Origin: Roseateles subflavus
GTDB lineage: Bacteria; Pseudomonadota; Gammaproteobacteria; Burkholderiales; Burkholderiaceae_C
NCBI RefSeq assembly: GCF_030285365.1
Contig: NZ_JASVDS010000005.1
Span: forward strand, 186,001 to 250,000
DNA: 64,000 nucleotides
Direction of reading: 5' to 3'
Shown: positions 23,352-59,666 of the stretch, in pieces
Position numbering within the stretch: position 1 is the first letter of the stretch
Layout: each line of letters opens with the position of its first letter
Position numbers and translations under genes: made by a program
Notes under the pieces: model-generated
What the model was told of the DNA's origin: nothing
Databases searched by the model: none
Seen by the model: only the letters and a program-made list of their open reading frames with translations

Positions 23352-25681
23352 TTGCCCAAGAACTTGAAGTCAGCCTGCACATGGCCTTCGTCGAGGCGCG
23401 CCAGCAGCGCCACGAATTCATCACCGTCGAGCATCTGCTGCAGGCGCTGCTGGACAATCCGTCCGCGGCGGAAGTGCTGCGCGCCTGCTCGGCCAACATC
23501 GATGACCTGCGTAAGAGCCTCGCGCAGTTCATCAAGGACAACACGCCCACGGTGGGCGGCACCGAGGAGGTGGACACCCAGCCCACGCTCGGCTTCCAGC
23601 GCGTGATCCAGCGCGCGATCATGCATGTGCAGTCCACCGGCAGCGGCAAGAAGGAAGTGACCGGCGCGAACGTGCTGGTCGCCATCTTCGGCGAGAAGGA
23701 CTCCCATGCCGTCTACTACCTGCACCAGCAGGGCGTGACGCGCCTGGACGTCGTCAACTACATCGCCCACGGCATCAAGAAGAGCGAGCCGCCCGAGCCC
23801 CCGAAGGGCCAGGACGGGCAAGGCAGCGGCTCCGATGCGGAACGCGAGGAGGGGGACGGCGCGGCCTCGGGCTCCAAGGGCTCGCCGCTGGAGCAGTTCA
23901 CCCAGAACCTCAACCAGCAGGCCAAGGACGGCAAGATCGATCCCTTGATCGGCCGCGAGGCCGAGGTGGAGCGCGTGGTGCAGGTGCTGTGCCGCCGACG
24001 CAAGAACAACCCGCTGCTGGTGGGCGAGGCCGGTGTCGGCAAGACCGCCATCGCCGAGGGTCTGGCCTGGCGCATCACGGAGGGCGACGTCCCCGACGTC
24101 CTGGCCGAGGCCCAGGTCTATTCCCTGGACATGGGCGCTCTGCTGGCCGGTACCAAGTACCGCGGCGACTTCGAACAGCGCCTGAAGGCCGTGCTCAAGC
24201 AGCTCAAGGACCAGCCCAACGCCATCCTCTTCATCGATGAGATCCACACGCTCATCGGCGCGGGCGCGGCCTCGGGGGGCACGCTCGACGCCAGCAACCT
24301 CCTCAAGCCGGCGCTGAGCTCCGGCGCGATGAAGTGCATCGGCGCGACCACCTTCACCGAGTACCGCGGCATCTTTGAGAAGGACGCCGCGCTGTCCCGC
24401 CGCTTCCAGAAGGTGGATGTGGCGGAGCCGTCCGTCGAGCAGACCATCGAGATCCTGAAGGGGCTGAAGTCGCGCTTCGAGGAGCATCACAGCGTGAAGT
24501 ACGCGCTGGGCGCCCTGCAGGCGGCGGCGGAGCTGTCGGCCAAGTACATCAACGACCGCCACCTGCCCGACAAGGCGATCGACGTCATCGACGAGGCCGG
24601 CGCCGCGCAGCGCATCCTGCCCAAGAGCAAGCAGAAGAAGACCATCACGCGTGCCGAGGTCGAGGACATCGTCGCCAAGATCGCCCGCATCCCGCCGGCG
24701 AGCGTGTCCAGCGACGACCGCGGCAAGCTCAAGAGCCTGGACCGCGACCTCAAGAGCGTCGTGTTCGGCCAGGATCCCGCCATCGACGCGCTGGCCGCCG
24801 CCATCAAGATGGCGCGCTCGGGGCTCGGCAAGCCGGACAAGCCCATCGGCAGCTTCCTGTTCTCGGGCCCCACCGGCGTGGGCAAGACCGAGGTGGCGAA
24901 GCAGCTGGCCTACATCCTGGGCATCGAGCTGATCCGCTTCGACATGTCCGAGTACATGGAGCGCCACGCCGTGAGCCGCCTCATCGGCGCGCCTCCGGGC
25001 TATGTGGGCTTCGACCAGGGCGGCCTGCTGACCGAGGCCGTCACCAAGAAGCCGCACAGCGTGCTGCTGCTGGACGAGATCGAGAAGGCGCACCCGGACG
25101 TCTTCAACGTGCTGCTGCAGGTCATGGACCACGGCTCGCTGACCGACAACAACGGGCGCAAGGCCGACTTCCGCAATGTCATCATCGTCATGACGACGAA
25201 TGCGGGCGCGGAGATCATGAACAAGTCCACCATCGGCTTCACCACCCAGCGCCAGCAGGGTGATGAGATGGCGGACATCAAGCGCCTGTTCACGCCCGAG
25301 TTCCGCAATCGCCTGGATGCCATCGTGTCCTTCCGTGCGCTGGACGAGGAGATCATCCTGCGCGTGGTGGACAAGTTCCTGCTGCAGCTGGAAAGCCAGC
25401 TGGCCGAGAAGAAGGTGGAGGTCACCTTCACCGACGCCCTGCGCCAGCAACTCGCCAAGAAGGGCTTCGACCCGCTCATGGGCGCGCGGCCGATGCAGCG
25501 CCTGATCCAGGACACCATCCGGCGGGCGCTGGCCGACGAGCTGCTGTTCGGCCGACTGGTCGATGGCGGGCGCCTGAAGGTGGATGTCGATGCCGCCGGC
25601 GAAGTGCAGCTGGACATTCAGCCGGCCGGCAAGAAGTCCGACAGCAAGCCGCCCAAGGCGGAGGCCGCCACGGCGGGCTGA
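23348..25681 (+). CDS. clpA: ATP-dependent Clp protease ATP-binding subunit ClpA
   Basis: AAA+ unfoldase that feeds proteins to ClpP. The 777-residue protein starts [20 protein letters not shown]. It has an N-domain, a first ATPase module with GEAGVGKT and Walker [12 protein letters not shown], and a second with GPTGVGKT and [10 protein letters not shown]. The ClpP-contact loop IGF occurs in [12 protein letters not shown]. No ClpB-type long coiled-coil insert is present, so ClpA and not ClpB. It is coupled to clpS and followed by a terminator. Confidence 0.97.
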
Positions 25682-25712
25682 CGTTCGACGCGAGCGACCT
25701 GGCTCCTGACAG

Positions 25713-25736
25713 ACGCGCCCCGAGGGGCGCGTTTTT
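25713..25736 (+). terminator. Rho-independent terminator of clpA
   Basis: ACGCGCCCC-GA-GGGGCGCGT followed by TTTT. It precedes the first 12-bp repeat array. Confidence 0.9.
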
Positions 25737-25788
25737 CATGCTCTCGATGGCGTCTGCCGTACGGACAGGCGGGTATCGATGCAGCGTG

Positions 25789-25896
25789 CGCCCTGGAGTC
25801 GGACCCGATATCGGACCGGATATCGGGCCAGACGTCGGGTCAGCGGTTGGGCCGGATGCCAGGCCGGCATTGCCCCCCGGCGTGGCGCCGGATGCC
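25789..25896. repeat. Degenerate 12-bp tandem array, about nine units
   Basis: From 25801 the sequence falls into 12-mers: GGACCCGATATC, GGACCGGATATC, GGGCCAGACGTC, GGGTCAGCGGTT, GGGCCGGATGCC and more diverged units to 25896, with one unit before 25801. The first two differ at one base and divergence grows to the right. In one frame it would encode GPDI-type tetrapeptides, but no supported gene uses that frame. Confidence 0.75.
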
Positions 25897-25901
25897 GCTG
25901 T

Positions 25902-26639
25902 TCACCATTCGTGGACGGAGGCCACCACGCGGCCGATGACCTCGAGGTCGGGGGCGGCTGACAGGTCCACGTCGTAGGCCGCGAAGGCCGGGTTGGCGCT
26001 GGTCACCCGCAGCACGCGCCCCGGAAGCATCTGGCAGTACCGCACCAGCAGCTCCTCACCCTGGCGCAGCGCATAGGCGTAGCCGCTGCGGGGCGTGATG
26101 TCCTGCTGGTCGATCAGCACCTGGTCCCCGTCGGACAGCGTGCCTTCCATGGCCGACCCCCGCACCGTCACCACGGTCAGTTTGCCGACCTCCAGCTGGC
26201 GCGAGGCGAGCCAGTCCTTGCCGAAGCACAGGCCGCTGACGTCCTGACGGGTGTCATAGGCGGCAGCGTCTTCATTGGCGGCGGCCAGGCCGCGGGCCGG
26301 CCGCTCCGGCAGCGCGGGGACGCGGACGTAGCGTTCGGCGCCGCTGTCGTCCTTGCGCCCGGTGATGACGAGCAGGAGGTCCATGCCCAGCGCTGCCGCC
26401 CTGCGCAGATAGCGGGCATCCGGGCTGCGGTCGCCGGCTTCGTAGTTGAACTGGGTGGTCTTGCTGACGCCGACGGCGGCACCAAAGTCCGCCTGGGCAT
26501 AGCCGAGCCGCTGGCGCTCCGCTCGAAGGCGGTCGCCAATGCCCACGTTCGTGGAATCTTGGGGGTCAACGGGATGGGTCACAGTGCATTGACTGTACGC
26601 GCTTTTTCCGCAGCAGACACCCACAAATGACAGCGCCAT
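25902..26639 (-). CDS. XRE/S24-type phage-like repressor lacking the catalytic lysine
   Basis: A 245-residue regulator with an N-terminal helix-turn-helix (about 33-80, GDRLRAERQRLGYAQADFGA then SKTTQFNYEAGDRSP). The C-terminal S24/LexA-like domain has the serine in VRGSAMEGTLSDGD (Ser162). Where LexA-fold proteases have the general-base lysine (LLVK), this protein has LLVRY with Arg200, so self-cleavage is probably lost. The ATG at 26639 gives 31 residues before the helix-turn-helix and has a weak ribosome site; a shorter start is possible. It diverges from a Cro-like gene across 138 bp with several inverted repeats, the arrangement of a phage switch. Confidence 0.82.
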   Translation of the reverse strand: MALSFVGVCCGKSAYSQCTVTHPVDPQDSTNVGIGDRLRAERQRLGYAQADFGAAVGVSKTTQFNYEAGDRSPDARYLRRAAALGMDLLLVITGRKDDSGAERYVRVPALPERPARGLAAANEDAAAYDTRQDVSGLCFGKDWLASRQLEVGKLTVVTVRGSAMEGTLSDGDQVLIDQQDITPRSGYAYALRQGEELLVRYCQMLPGRVLRVTSANPAFAAYDVDLSAAPDLEVIGRVVASVHEW

Positions 26640-26693
26640 GGTCTCACTATGTCATCAATCGAGGGGATGAACTGACCCATGTCTCACGTATGG

Positions 26694-26711
26694 AAACAGA
26701 ATCAACTGTTT
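26694..26711. promoter_or_regulatory. Operator-like inverted repeat AAACAG-N6-CTGTTT
   Basis: A perfect 6-bp inverted repeat in the intergenic region between the S24 repressor and the Cro-like gene. An overlapping ATCAA-N5-TTGAT repeat lies at 26701-26715. Confidence 0.5.
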
Positions 26712-26730
26712 TGATGATGTGAATTCCATT

Positions 26731-26760
26731 TGTTGAAACTACAGTGGCTGCAGTTCAACA
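26731..26760. promoter_or_regulatory. Operator-like inverted repeat TGTTGAAACT / AGTTCAACA
   Basis: Arms separated by 11 bp, ending 17 bp before the start of the Cro-like gene. They are 9-10 bp long with one bulged base. Candidate binding site for the divergent repressor or the Cro-like protein. Confidence 0.45.
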
Positions 26761-26777
26761 GGACATCAGCAACCATC

Positions 26778-27020
26778 ATGAGCAATCAACAAACGGATGG
26801 TCTGGTCGCGGAAGGTGGTAAGCGGTTTCTGCAAGACCAGGCGTCGCCCGCAGCGGCAAAACGGACGCTTCAGATGCAGGGCATCACCCTGAGCGAGTTC
26901 GCGCGACAGCACGGCTTCAAGTACCGCACGGTGTCGGAGGTGGTGCGGGGGGTGAACAAGGGCCTGTATGGGGAGGGGCACCGCGTGGCGGTGGCCCTCG
27001 GTCTGAAGCGTGGGCCCTGA
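26778..27020 (+). CDS. Small Cro-like DNA-binding protein
   Basis: An 80-residue protein. Residues 33-78 contain the helix-turn-helix LQMQGITLSEFARQHGFKYR then TVSEVVRGVNKG, a Cro/CI-like recognition unit, and it ends with a basic GLKRGP. I chose the ATG at 26778; an in-frame TTG 48 nt upstream would extend through the operator-like repeat. It is transcribed away from the S24 repressor and is followed after 2 nt by an unknown gene. With the repressor it looks like a domesticated lysogeny switch. Confidence 0.72.
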   Translation: MSNQQTDGLVAEGGKRFLQDQASPAAAKRTLQMQGITLSEFARQHGFKYRTVSEVVRGVNKGLYGEGHRVAVALGLKRGP

Positions 27021-27022
27021 GC

Positions 27023-27301
27023 ATGGCGCCCGCTTCCTCCGATGCCCCCGGGCCGGCGCCTCCGCCCGAGCCGGCAGCGAGCGTTCCGCCGCGCATCGAC
27101 CGGCTCGTCCTGCGCGTCGCCTACGCCTATGACGTCCTTCCATTCGACGTCTTCCAGCGTCTGCGATCGGCGCTGGCGGGGGACCACAACATCGCCCAGG
27201 CCCTCGAGACGGCTCGCGAGGTGGTGGCGGTGTTGTCGGCGGACGATCTGGCCTACGTGCTGGCTCGCCTGCTGGTCTGCACGTCGGACGCGATCGACTA
27301 G
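27023..27301 (+). CDS. Unknown 92-residue protein of the phage-like switch
   Basis: Starts 2 nt after the Cro-like gene. A Pro/Ala-rich N-terminus (1-22) is followed by a helical-looking part: LVLRVAYAYDVLPFDVFQRL, then residues about 50-92 with amphipathic repeats and an acidic end (TSDAID). No catalytic motif, signal peptide or membrane segment, and I do not recognise the family. The tight spacing suggests co-translation with the Cro-like protein. It ends 62 bp before the second 12-bp repeat array. Confidence 0.55.
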   Translation: MAPASSDAPGPAPPPEPAASVPPRIDRLVLRVAYAYDVLPFDVFQRLRSALAGDHNIAQALETAREVVAVLSADDLAYVLARLLVCTSDAID

Positions 27302-27362
27302 CCGCCTGCTGTGGCGCCGTCGCCCGGGCGTGTCGGGGGCGGCGACGTGCCGGGAGGCGTCG

Positions 27363-27479
27363 CCCGGCGTGCTGCCCGGTGTGCTGCCCGGCAGATTGCC
27401 CCGCCGGGTGGGCCGTCTCGTGGGCGGTCTCGTGGGCGGTCTTGTGCGCAGTCTTGTGCGCGGTCTCGTGACCCGGCTC
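27363..27479. repeat. Second degenerate 12-bp tandem array, ending at the mtfA stop
   Basis: About ten 12-bp units in register. Left units read CCCGGCGTGCTG, CCCGGTGTGCTG, CCCGGCAGATTG. Right units read GTGGGCCGTCTC, GTGGGCGGTCTC, GTGGGCGGTCTT, GTGCGCAGTCTT, GTGCGCGGTCTC. The last unit runs into the mtfA stop codon. It differs in sequence from the array at 25.8 kb but shares the 12-bp period. On the minus strand it would read as HETA/HKTA-type tetrapeptides beyond the mtfA stop. Confidence 0.75.
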
Positions 27480-28260
27480 AGCGGGCGGCCGGATCCTGGC
27501 GGTAGAAGCTGGCAAAGAGCGCGTAGAGGGCCGGGTCGCTCTGCTGCAGCAGCTGCGGCTCGACGAAGAAGGCCTCCGTGGCCACGGCAAAGAACTCCTC
27601 GACGGATTCCGCGCCGTAGGGGTCGATGACCGTCTCGATGCCGGCATCGACCTGCTCGCAGAACCGTTCCCAGGCCGGGTCGATCACCGCGATCCAGGCC
27701 TCGGTCGCGGCGGCCGAGGGCAGCGGGGGAATGCCGTCGGGCGCCCCGTTGGCCATGTCCAGCACATGGGCGAACTCATGGATCACCACGTTGTAGACCG
27801 GCCCGGCGCCCAGGGCCGGATCGGGCTGAAGCTCGCTCCAGGCCAGCATCAGGGGGCCGCCCTCCATGGCCTCGCCGGCCAGCTCTTCCTCGTAGTGATG
27901 CACGACGCCATCCTCGTCCATCACCTCGCGAGGCGCGACGACCTCCGACTCGTGCATCACGATGCCCACGAAGCCGTCGTAGGCCGCCAGCCCAAGCGCC
28001 AGCACTGGCAGGCAGGCCTGGGCAGCCACGGCCACGGCGACCTCGTCCGTGACCTCGAAGCCGCCGGCGCCGTGGAATTCCTTGCGGGCCAGGAACAACG
28101 AACACAGGCGCCGAAGCGACGCGAGATCCGCCTCGCTGCGGCGGCCGATGAAGGGATAGCGGGCCAGCGTCAGCGCCCACAAGGCGTCGGGTATGGCATG
28201 GCGTGCCAGCTGTCGCTGCTCGCGCCGCGCCTGCCAGGACTGCAGGAGCCGCGTCAGCAT
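27478..28260 (-). CDS. mtfA: MtfA-family zinc metallopeptidase
   Basis: A 260-residue cytoplasmic M90-family protein. The zinc-binding HEFAH is at residues 161-165 in VVIHEFAHVLDMANGAPDG. PYGAESVEEFFAVATEAFF supplies the third ligand and is typical of MtfA. E. coli MtfA binds the glucose regulator Mlc and has aminopeptidase activity; that role is not shown here. Its start overlaps lpxH by 7 bp, making it the last gene of the ppiA-ppiB-lpxH-mtfA run. A 12-bp repeat array begins at its stop codon. Confidence 0.9.
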   Translation of the reverse strand: MLTRLLQSWQARREQRQLARHAIPDALWALTLARYPFIGRRSEADLASLRRLCSLFLARKEFHGAGGFEVTDEVAVAVAAQACLPVLALGLAAYDGFVGIVMHESEVVAPREVMDEDGVVHHYEEELAGEAMEGGPLMLAWSELQPDPALGAGPVYNVVIHEFAHVLDMANGAPDGIPPLPSAAATEAWIAVIDPAWERFCEQVDAGIETVIDPYGAESVEEFFAVATEAFFVEPQLLQQSDPALYALFASFYRQDPAAR

Positions 28261-58403: not shown

Positions 58404-59594
58404 ATGCCGGGTCAGACCGTCGCCACCGCCGGGCCGGGCAGCGCGCTCGCCACCCGGCGCATCCATGTGATGGAGCTCGTGGGCAACGCCATCGTCGGCG
58501 GCATGGAATGCTGGGTCGAGCGATTGCTGCAGCATCTGCCACGGGAACGCTTCCGCATCACCGTCGTCTGCCCCTACGAAGGCCGCTTCAGCGCGGCCAT
58601 GCGGGCCCTGGGGGCGGACGTGGTCTGCATCCCCATGCCCGAGGACCCGGCCTGGAGTGCGGCCCAGCTGGGCCAGGCGCTGGCCCGCAGCACCGGCGTG
58701 GACCTGCTGCACGCGCATCTGCCCAATGCGCACGCACTGGGCGGGCTGGTGTCGCGCCTCACGGACCTGCCGCTGCTGTGCACCATCCATGGCCGGCAGA
58801 TCACGCTGCTGGACCTGGAGGTGCACCGCGCCGTCCGCAGCCACCTGAGCGTGGTGTGCCGCCACAGCTACCTGCATGCGCTGGGCGTCGGGGTGGATCG
58901 CCGCCGGCTGAGCTGCGAGCCCAACGGCGTGGACACCCGCTGCTTCCATCCCGGCCCGCGCCCCCTGGACGGCCTGCGCCAGCAACTGGGCCTGGACACG
59001 GTGGCGCCGCTGGTGGGATTTGTCGGGCGCCTCTCGCCGGAGAAGGGCCCCGAGCAGTTCCTGCGCGCGGCGGCGCTGCTGTCCGAGGGGCTGCCGCCGG
59101 GCACACGCTTCGTGATGGTGGGCGAGGGGCCCCTGCGAGGCGCGCTGGAGGCGGACCTGGCGCGCCTCGGCCTTGGCGACCGCGTGCGGATGGCGGGGCA
59201 GCGGGATGACATGCCCACGCTGTACCGCGAGCTCGACGTGCTGGTGTCCTGCTCGCATTCCGAGGCCATGCCCCTGGCCGTGATGGAGGCCCTGGCCAGC
59301 GGCGTCCCCGTGGTCGGCACGCGCGTCGGCGGCATGCCGGAGATCGTGCAGCACGGCGTCAGCGGCTGGCTGGTGGCGCCGCGCGACATCGAGGACCTGG
59401 CCGCCCGCATCCGCCAGCTCCTCGAGGCGCCCGCGCGGCGCCAGGCCATGGGCGCCGCGGCCCGCCGGGACATGGTGCAGCGGCTGGACCTGCGACCCAG
59501 CCTCGACCGCGTCGCCAGCCTGATGCAGGCCCTGGCCCGCCAGGCCCGCGAGCCGCATCGCCTGGAAGACGTCAGTGTCCTCGGGCGGGCGTGA
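58404..59594 (+). CDS. GT4-type glycosyltransferase
   Basis: A 396-residue enzyme of the GT4 type. GNAIVGGMECWVERLLQHLP lies in the acceptor domain and PNGVDTRCFHPGPRP in the linker. FVGRLSPEKGPEQFL (donor phosphate site) and the EX7E motif EAMPLAVME follow. The stop codon lies inside a 32-bp tandem repeat. Retaining mechanism expected; sugar unknown. Confidence 0.88.
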   Translation: MPGQTVATAGPGSALATRRIHVMELVGNAIVGGMECWVERLLQHLPRERFRITVVCPYEGRFSAAMRALGADVVCIPMPEDPAWSAAQLGQALARSTGVDLLHAHLPNAHALGGLVSRLTDLPLLCTIHGRQITLLDLEVHRAVRSHLSVVCRHSYLHALGVGVDRRRLSCEPNGVDTRCFHPGPRPLDGLRQQLGLDTVAPLVGFVGRLSPEKGPEQFLRAAALLSEGLPPGTRFVMVGEGPLRGALEADLARLGLGDRVRMAGQRDDMPTLYRELDVLVSCSHSEAMPLAVMEALASGVPVVGTRVGGMPEIVQHGVSGWLVAPRDIEDLAARIRQLLEAPARRQAMGAAARRDMVQRLDLRPSLDRVASLMQALARQAREPHRLEDVSVLGRA

Positions 59595-59666
59595 GACCGC
59601 CCGCAGCACGAGTCTGGCGGGCGTGAGACCGCCCGCAGCACGAGTCTGGCGGGCGTGAGACCGCCT
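59587..59666. repeat. 32-bp tandem repeat of hairpin units at the glycosyltransferase stop
   Basis: Copies start at 59587, 59619 and 59651 (period 32, two and a half copies). Each full copy carries an inverted repeat GCGGGC...GCCCGC with a short loop followed by AGCACGAGTCTG. The first copy includes the TGA stop of the preceding gene. Confidence 0.85.

Follow-up and report, generated by a model that had tools for sequence, protein, structure and literature searches.

A phage-derived repressor and Ner-like gene pair between clpA and mtfA of Roseateles subflavus as a probable domesticated switch

Gene content of the clpA–mtfA interval

The interval between clpA and mtfA of Roseateles subflavus houses a module of three genes that probably descends from the control region of a transposable phage. 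It was analyzed within a window of 64,000 nucleotides (the whole stretch of contig NZ_JASVDS010000005.1 from 186,001 to 250,000, forward strand; positions are counted from its first letter), in which the stop codon of clpA lies at 25681 and that of mtfA at 27478. The first gene encodes an S24-type phage repressor of 226 residues on the minus strand (25902–26582), which contains a Peptidase_S24 domain (Pfam PF00717) and a helix-turn-helix (HTH) domain of the HTH_3 family. Translation probably begins at the GTG at 26582 and not at the ATG at 26639, given that a GTG sits likewise in both congeners. Divergent from it, on the plus strand, a Ner-like HTH protein of 80 residues is encoded (26778–27020), which matches TIGR04111, the BcepMu gp16 family, with an E value of 7.6e-21 and phrog_925 of PHROGs with 4.5e-21. 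The third gene, also on the plus strand (27023–27301), encodes a protein of 92 residues, herein called u92, that was seen in all three genomes of the genus. It starts 2 bp past the end of the Ner-like gene, a spacing from which both genes presumably form one operon. Open reading frames (ORFs), Pfam, and TIGR04111 bear out the original prediction for this part, which had listed an S24 repressor, a divergent Cro-like protein, and a 92-residue protein in these orientations.

The two DNA-binding proteins are separated by an A+T-rich divergent promoter region (26583–26777). It has a GC content of 46% vs 69% for the window and contains partly conserved blocks in the three-genome alignment. Within it lies the palindrome GTTGAA-N16-TTCAAC (26732–26759), a candidate operator that is found as an exact match once in each of the three genus genomes, each time 18 bp before the start codon of the Ner-like gene. 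When one mismatch is allowed, the counts per strand are similar to what the reversed control gives (10 vs 7 in the own genome, 7 vs 6 in congener G001, and 7 vs 8 in congener G002); therefore, no regulon is claimed.

Kinship with transposable phages

Both DNA-binding proteins of the module find their best match in the Mu-like Curvibacter phage TJ1, which has the same divergent arrangement. The repressor shows a 46% match to the TJ1 repressor across 99% of the 214-aa query, and the Ner-like protein is 68% identical to its TJ1 counterpart over 57 aa. All nine IMG/VR contigs that match the HTH protein strongly (L194–L202) carry a repressor, a divergent HTH gene, and then a gp10-like gene and the transposase gene tnpA; among them, L199 represents TJ1 itself or a near-copy, with 100% identity in the tested early proteins. 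The remaining 12 of 21 IMG/VR loci were set aside, having weak HTH matches (44%) and no repressor match. Same gene order is found in the gene table of phage KS10, where BcepMu gp17, gp16, and gp10 are named as homologues and where the repressor is shorter, with 156 aa (PMC2628397). On the upstream side of the Ner-like gene, phage contig L198 and this genome have TTTGTTGAA(A)CTACAGT in common, as seen by eye and without a statistic attached. By origin, the module hence appears to be the control region of a BcepMu/TJ1-type transposable phage. The gp10-like gene and the transposase are missing at this place, and u92 stands behind the Ner-like gene instead.

The same kinship bears on the possibility of a superinfection-immunity cassette, in which the repressor, together with its own operators, would block incoming TJ1-type transposable phages. 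The homology to phage repressors runs the length of the protein, and the TJ1 TnpA query, which matched family genome G101 at E 3.5e-237 as a positive control, found nothing in any of the three genus genomes. However, all three are drafts (23, ~30, and ~180 contigs), so that this absence is weak evidence for such a cassette. With an identity of 43–53% between the module repressor and those of the nine phage contigs, the operators may not match, and inspection of the phage control regions by eye reveals no obvious copy of the palindrome. Moreover, immunity leaves the retention of the Ner-like gene and the new gene u92 unexplained. As the purpose of the module, it is therefore considered unlikely.

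Distribution and arrival

The module is present in all three genus genomes (this genome, G001, and G002) at the same place. For comparison, the interval was fetched in 12 family genomes of other genera with the best mtfA matches, four of which were uninformative, containing mtfA without clpA in the stretch. Where clpA is found beside mtfA, the gap measures 0–77 bp in seven of eight genomes and holds an unrelated 398-aa ORF in the eighth. This ORF (L034 1283–2479, genome G031), which shows a lipoprotein-like signal by eye, fills the mtfA–clpA gap in another genus; hence, the site received inserts more than once.

Among 399 genomes of the family, the repressor is detected at E ≤ 1e-20 in four, namely the three genus members and G101—the latter with HTH, gp10-like, and transposase genes near its repressor. 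The HTH family is broader, reaching 57 of the 399 genomes at E ≤ 0.001. In the tree, the repressors of the three genus members cluster as a single group with a support of 99/98. A single capture in the ancestor of the genus would be the simplest account. Apart from the module, a second and more distant gp16-family HTH gene was observed in the own genome (G000:C2:25560-25724; 38% identity over 55 aa).

Self-cleavage residues of the repressor

The Ala-Gly cleavage site as well as the Ser and Lys residues are present in all ten aligned phage and prophage repressors (L194–L202 and L167); we take the roles of these residues to be those of their counterparts in LexA and CI. In the genus, the Ala preceding the Gly is replaced in all three members (Arg, Asp, Gly). 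The residue alignment further shows that the catalytic Ser is exchanged for Ala and the Lys for Arg in this genome only. Because the cleavage Ala and the catalytic Ser/Lys are replaced, the repressor of this species should be blind to RecA-stimulated self-cleavage and should not be inactivated by it. In PADLOC, RmrA models match the HTH part of the repressor alone (residues 29–82, best E 7.6e-6).

Conservation of the module genes

All three reading frames are intact in the three genus genomes. The ratio of nonsynonymous to synonymous substitution rates (dN/dS) of the repressor is 0.29 against either congener and 0.17 within the congener pair. The Ner-like gene yields 0.20 and 0.26 against the congeners and 0.12 within the pair, and u92 0.21 and 0.21, with 0.15 within the pair. 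As comparison genes, clpA shows 0.02–0.05 in the three pairs, values computed on frames that reach upstream of the start, and mtfA shows 0.13 against both congeners; the mtfA value of the congener pair (0.31) used a likewise extended frame and was set aside.

A decaying prophage relic without function would be expected to look in part like what is seen here, since the repressor of this genome has lost catalytic residues and the divergent region has drifted. Yet the frames are intact throughout, dN/dS is far below 1, and the palindrome and its spacing are maintained in all three genomes, which renders mere decay very unlikely.

The u92 protein

The only Pfam match of u92 lies below threshold (DUF3248, E 0.075, 13.4 bits at a cut-off of 27), and there are zero matches in PHROGs, NCBIfam, and PADLOC. 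Its predicted model consists of four helices, with a mean predicted local distance difference test score (pLDDT) of 72.8 for the best of five models and 53–57 for the remaining four. A search of this fold against the PDB returned 34 matches at E ≤ 10 and none at E ≤ 0.001. Six weak matches among the 399 family genomes (E 1.8e-4 to 7.3e-4) look spurious as relatives beyond the genus once translated; one of them bears a motif that is presumably that of a uracil-DNA glycosylase. In phages, no match was found at E ≤ 1, and of 52 pattern matches in viral contigs, none was confirmed. That u92 might be left over from the gp10-like gene of the phages was rejected, as it has no match to the gp10-like profile.

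The position of u92 raises a further explanation, namely an inhibitor module like RacR–YdaS–YdaT, in which the repressor would silence a harmful Ner-like or u92 protein and the whole would be kept by addiction. A repressor next to a two-gene operon is the arrangement described for RacR with ydaS–ydaT (PMC5700377). In the module, u92 directly follows the Ner-like gene at a 2-bp gap and has a dN/dS of ~0.21, and a noncleavable repressor suits permanent silencing. On the other hand, neither u92 nor the Ner-like protein matches any toxin or defense family in Pfam, PHROGs, NCBIfam, or PADLOC. Also counted against the analogy is a letter that reportedly contests the status of YdaS and YdaT as true toxins (PMC5917428). 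Such a module is regarded as somewhat unlikely.

The flanking 12-bp arrays

Outside the module, a degenerate tandem array with a period of 12 bp is located on either side, array 1 at 25789–25896 and array 2 at 27362–27481. No other part of the window shows a period of 12 as strongly: the match fractions are 0.79 (around 27386) and 0.67 (around 25784), followed by 0.60 for the next best stretch. Laid out as 12-mers, array 1 gives nine rows and array 2 gives ten, the outer rows being poorly alike, and the unit sequences of the two arrays differ. Both had been placed at the 3′ end of a flanking core gene. This is correct for array 2 alone, which adjoins mtfA (stop 27478), whereas array 1 adjoins the 3′ end of the repressor gene (stop 25902), with the clpA stop (25681) ~110 bp off. 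In the gap behind clpA, a G+C-rich hairpin with a T-run (~25712–25738) was spotted by eye, likewise in the congeners; the terminator scanner did not report it.

To be scored, an array had to reach a match fraction of 0.65 at lag 12 across 48 positions while staying below 0.55 at lags 2, 3, 4, and 6. Gene calls for the genome samples come from a custom codon-usage script, so that the gap classes are approximate. In the own genome, the sample comprises 1.25 of 5.05 Mb in contiguous, not random, stretches; 100 kb of contig C17 were included owing to a unit-like pattern match and supply none of the array gaps. Pure period-12 arrays occur in 10 of its 595 gaps of at least 60 bp, two of these being array 1 and array 2. 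Dinucleotide shuffles of the same gaps yield a mean of 0.05 array-bearing gaps and a maximum of 1 in 40 rounds. The arrays with their unrelated units are real, as originally described, and stand far above shuffled sequence. G001 has such arrays in 4 of 188 gaps (0.4 Mb) and G009, from another genus, in 0 of 140 (0.4 Mb). Among periods 7–30 in the own gaps, 12 is the commonest (10 gaps), followed by 11 (5) and 9 (4); the G001 gaps show period 12 in 4 and period 11 in 3. Inside genes, pure period-12 stretches number 13 in 1121 (own), 10 in 341 (G001), and 4 in 337 (G009). Examples elsewhere in the own genome (G000) are C12:114609-115098, C1:607291-608246, and C12:353409-353570, all in noncoding gaps and with unrelated units. 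A single repeat family was ruled out, given that the units differ from locus to locus.

By gap class, the own arrays fall into 5 of 77 convergent, 5 of 345 tandem, and 0 of 173 divergent gaps (≥60 bp; Fisher p = 0.005). A preference for convergent gaps is not claimed: without array 1 and array 2, the counts are 3 of 75 vs 5 of 518 (p = 0.07), and in G001, they are 1 of 31 convergent, 2 of 50 divergent, and 1 of 107 tandem (p = 0.52).

The orthologous gaps of both congeners contain no arrays. In G001, the best period-12 match is 0.44 in both gaps, and in G002, the absence was judged by reading. For turnover in general, the array lists were drawn up at a threshold of 0.62, giving 12 own and 5 G001 gaps, and a gap was placeable if both flanking genes are adjacent in the other genome. 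This was so for 3 of 12 from own to G001, 3 of 5 from G001 to own, and 1 of 12 from own to G009. In all seven placeable cases, the orthologous gap scores below 0.62 (range 0.40–0.60), although two of the contrasts are slight (0.62 vs 0.58 and 0.67 vs 0.60) and two are array 1 and array 2 themselves.

One array per side in this genome had suggested an element whose borders are marked, and perhaps moved or insulated, by the repeats. The arrays are not module borders because both congeners carry the module in place without them. Similar arrays lie between unrelated genes (10 of 595 gaps, including these two), and array 1 is not at the clpA end. The boundary role of the original prediction is thereby overturned and has to be called highly improbable. 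The interval comparison that had been proposed along with it is informative in the congeners, which have the module without arrays; the other genera lack the module altogether and are therefore uninformative on its borders. The arrays look like a genome-wide, fast-changing class that is independent of the module, for which slippage would be the simplest cause.

Two further repeats were noted. An imperfect inverted repeat, one arm of which contains GGAGGT, was spotted by eye in the u92–mtfA gap of the congeners (L032 4101–4200 and L033 1750–1850), the gap that harbors array 2 in this species. Elsewhere in the window, a perfect 32-bp tandem repeat is found at 59584–59665 with 2.6 copies and a 100% match, far better conserved than the 12-bp arrays.

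Proposed mechanism

The module is probably a domesticated switch from a transposable phage, acting as a host regulator that is blind to the SOS response. As suggested by the homology and the empty site in other genera, an ancestor of the genus would have acquired an immunity/control region from a BcepMu/TJ1-type phage, with clpA and mtfA as its neighbors; behind the Ner-like gene, there is a new gene, u92. The A+T-rich stretch that separates their genes would most likely be the target of both the repressor and the Ner-like protein, and the GTTGAA-N16-TTCAAC palindrome is one candidate operator therein. In this way, the pair would regulate itself and set the Ner-like–u92 operon on or off. Its role would probably be constitutive, SOS-blind control over u92 and perhaps also over related phages that enter the cell. 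The flanking 12-bp arrays would come and go independently in the gaps of the genus. The domesticated remnant or self-standing switch of the original prediction agrees with the homology to phage control regions, the lack of adjacent transposition genes, the single site in three of three genomes, and the dN/dS far below 1.

A narrower version is put forward tentatively, with less than even confidence: that a lysis-lysogeny switch turned into a self-standing, bistable regulator of u92, blind to DNA damage and fixed in the genus, by stepwise loss of first the cleavage site and then the catalytic dyad.

Several observations weigh against the domesticated switch or weaken its foundations. The genus sample comprises three genomes only, and the inner forks linking the genus repressors to phages are weak, leaving the exact position in the phage tree unsettled. 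G001 and G002 retain Ser and Lys, so that the cleavage loss there comes down to the P1 Ala alone, and this residue sits in a linker of low conservation and less secure alignment. The dN/dS values stem from a simple Nei–Gojobori calculation on short genes with dS up to ~0.7. The divergent region has drifted more in this genome than in the congeners, and a sigma-70 consensus scan found no promoter-like site.

Comparison with known systems

The arrays resemble bacterial minisatellite-like or variable number tandem repeat arrays in their head-to-tail degenerate copies and lineage specificity. They differ in the period peak at 12, the unrelated units, and the location in noncoding gaps. The literature searched contained no description of noncoding period-12 arrays with unrelated units; the nearest lead is reportedly a minisatellite inside a miniature inverted-repeat transposable element (MITE) of Porphyromonas (PMC4596501). 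These fast-turnover noncoding arrays are a feature of the genus separate from the module.

Repressor/Cro pairs are common in decayed prophages. No literature was found on domesticated prophage repressors or noncleavable repressors of cryptic prophages, a weak negative that stems from narrow search terms and few subscription journals.

In the RacR system, racR is divergent from ydaS–ydaT, and the first operon gene encodes a small DNA-binding protein. RacR represses this adjacent operon in the cryptic Rac prophage of Escherichia coli (PMC5700377). The module is similar in being a prophage-derived repressor beside a presumed two-gene operon, with the same order and orientation in three genomes; unlike the RacR system, which lies within the Rac prophage, it stands alone. 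No YdaS or YdaT family is among the Pfam and NCBIfam matches of the module proteins, and no direct comparison with RacR, YdaS, and YdaT was made.

With LexA/CI-type S24 repressors, the module repressor shares the combination of HTH and S24 domains, whereas the genus repressors lack the cleavage Ala and that of this genome also the Ser-Lys dyad. The closest relatives are the control regions of BcepMu/TJ1-type phages (TJ1 and the Burkholderia phages BcepMu and KS10), in which a repressor is likewise divergent from a gp16-family HTH gene and of which both TJ1 proteins are homologous. In contrast to the module with its genus-only u92, the phages have a gp10-like gene and TnpA, and their repressors differ from that of this genome, which is devoid of cleavage Ala and catalytic dyad. 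Against the background of the common pairs in decayed prophages, this locus stands out: the pair is free-standing at a site found empty in other genera, dN/dS is low for every gene, the palindrome occurs once per genome, and the loss of the cleavage residues can be traced. Hence, it offers a small, testable case of a phage decision circuit that may be becoming a host regulator.

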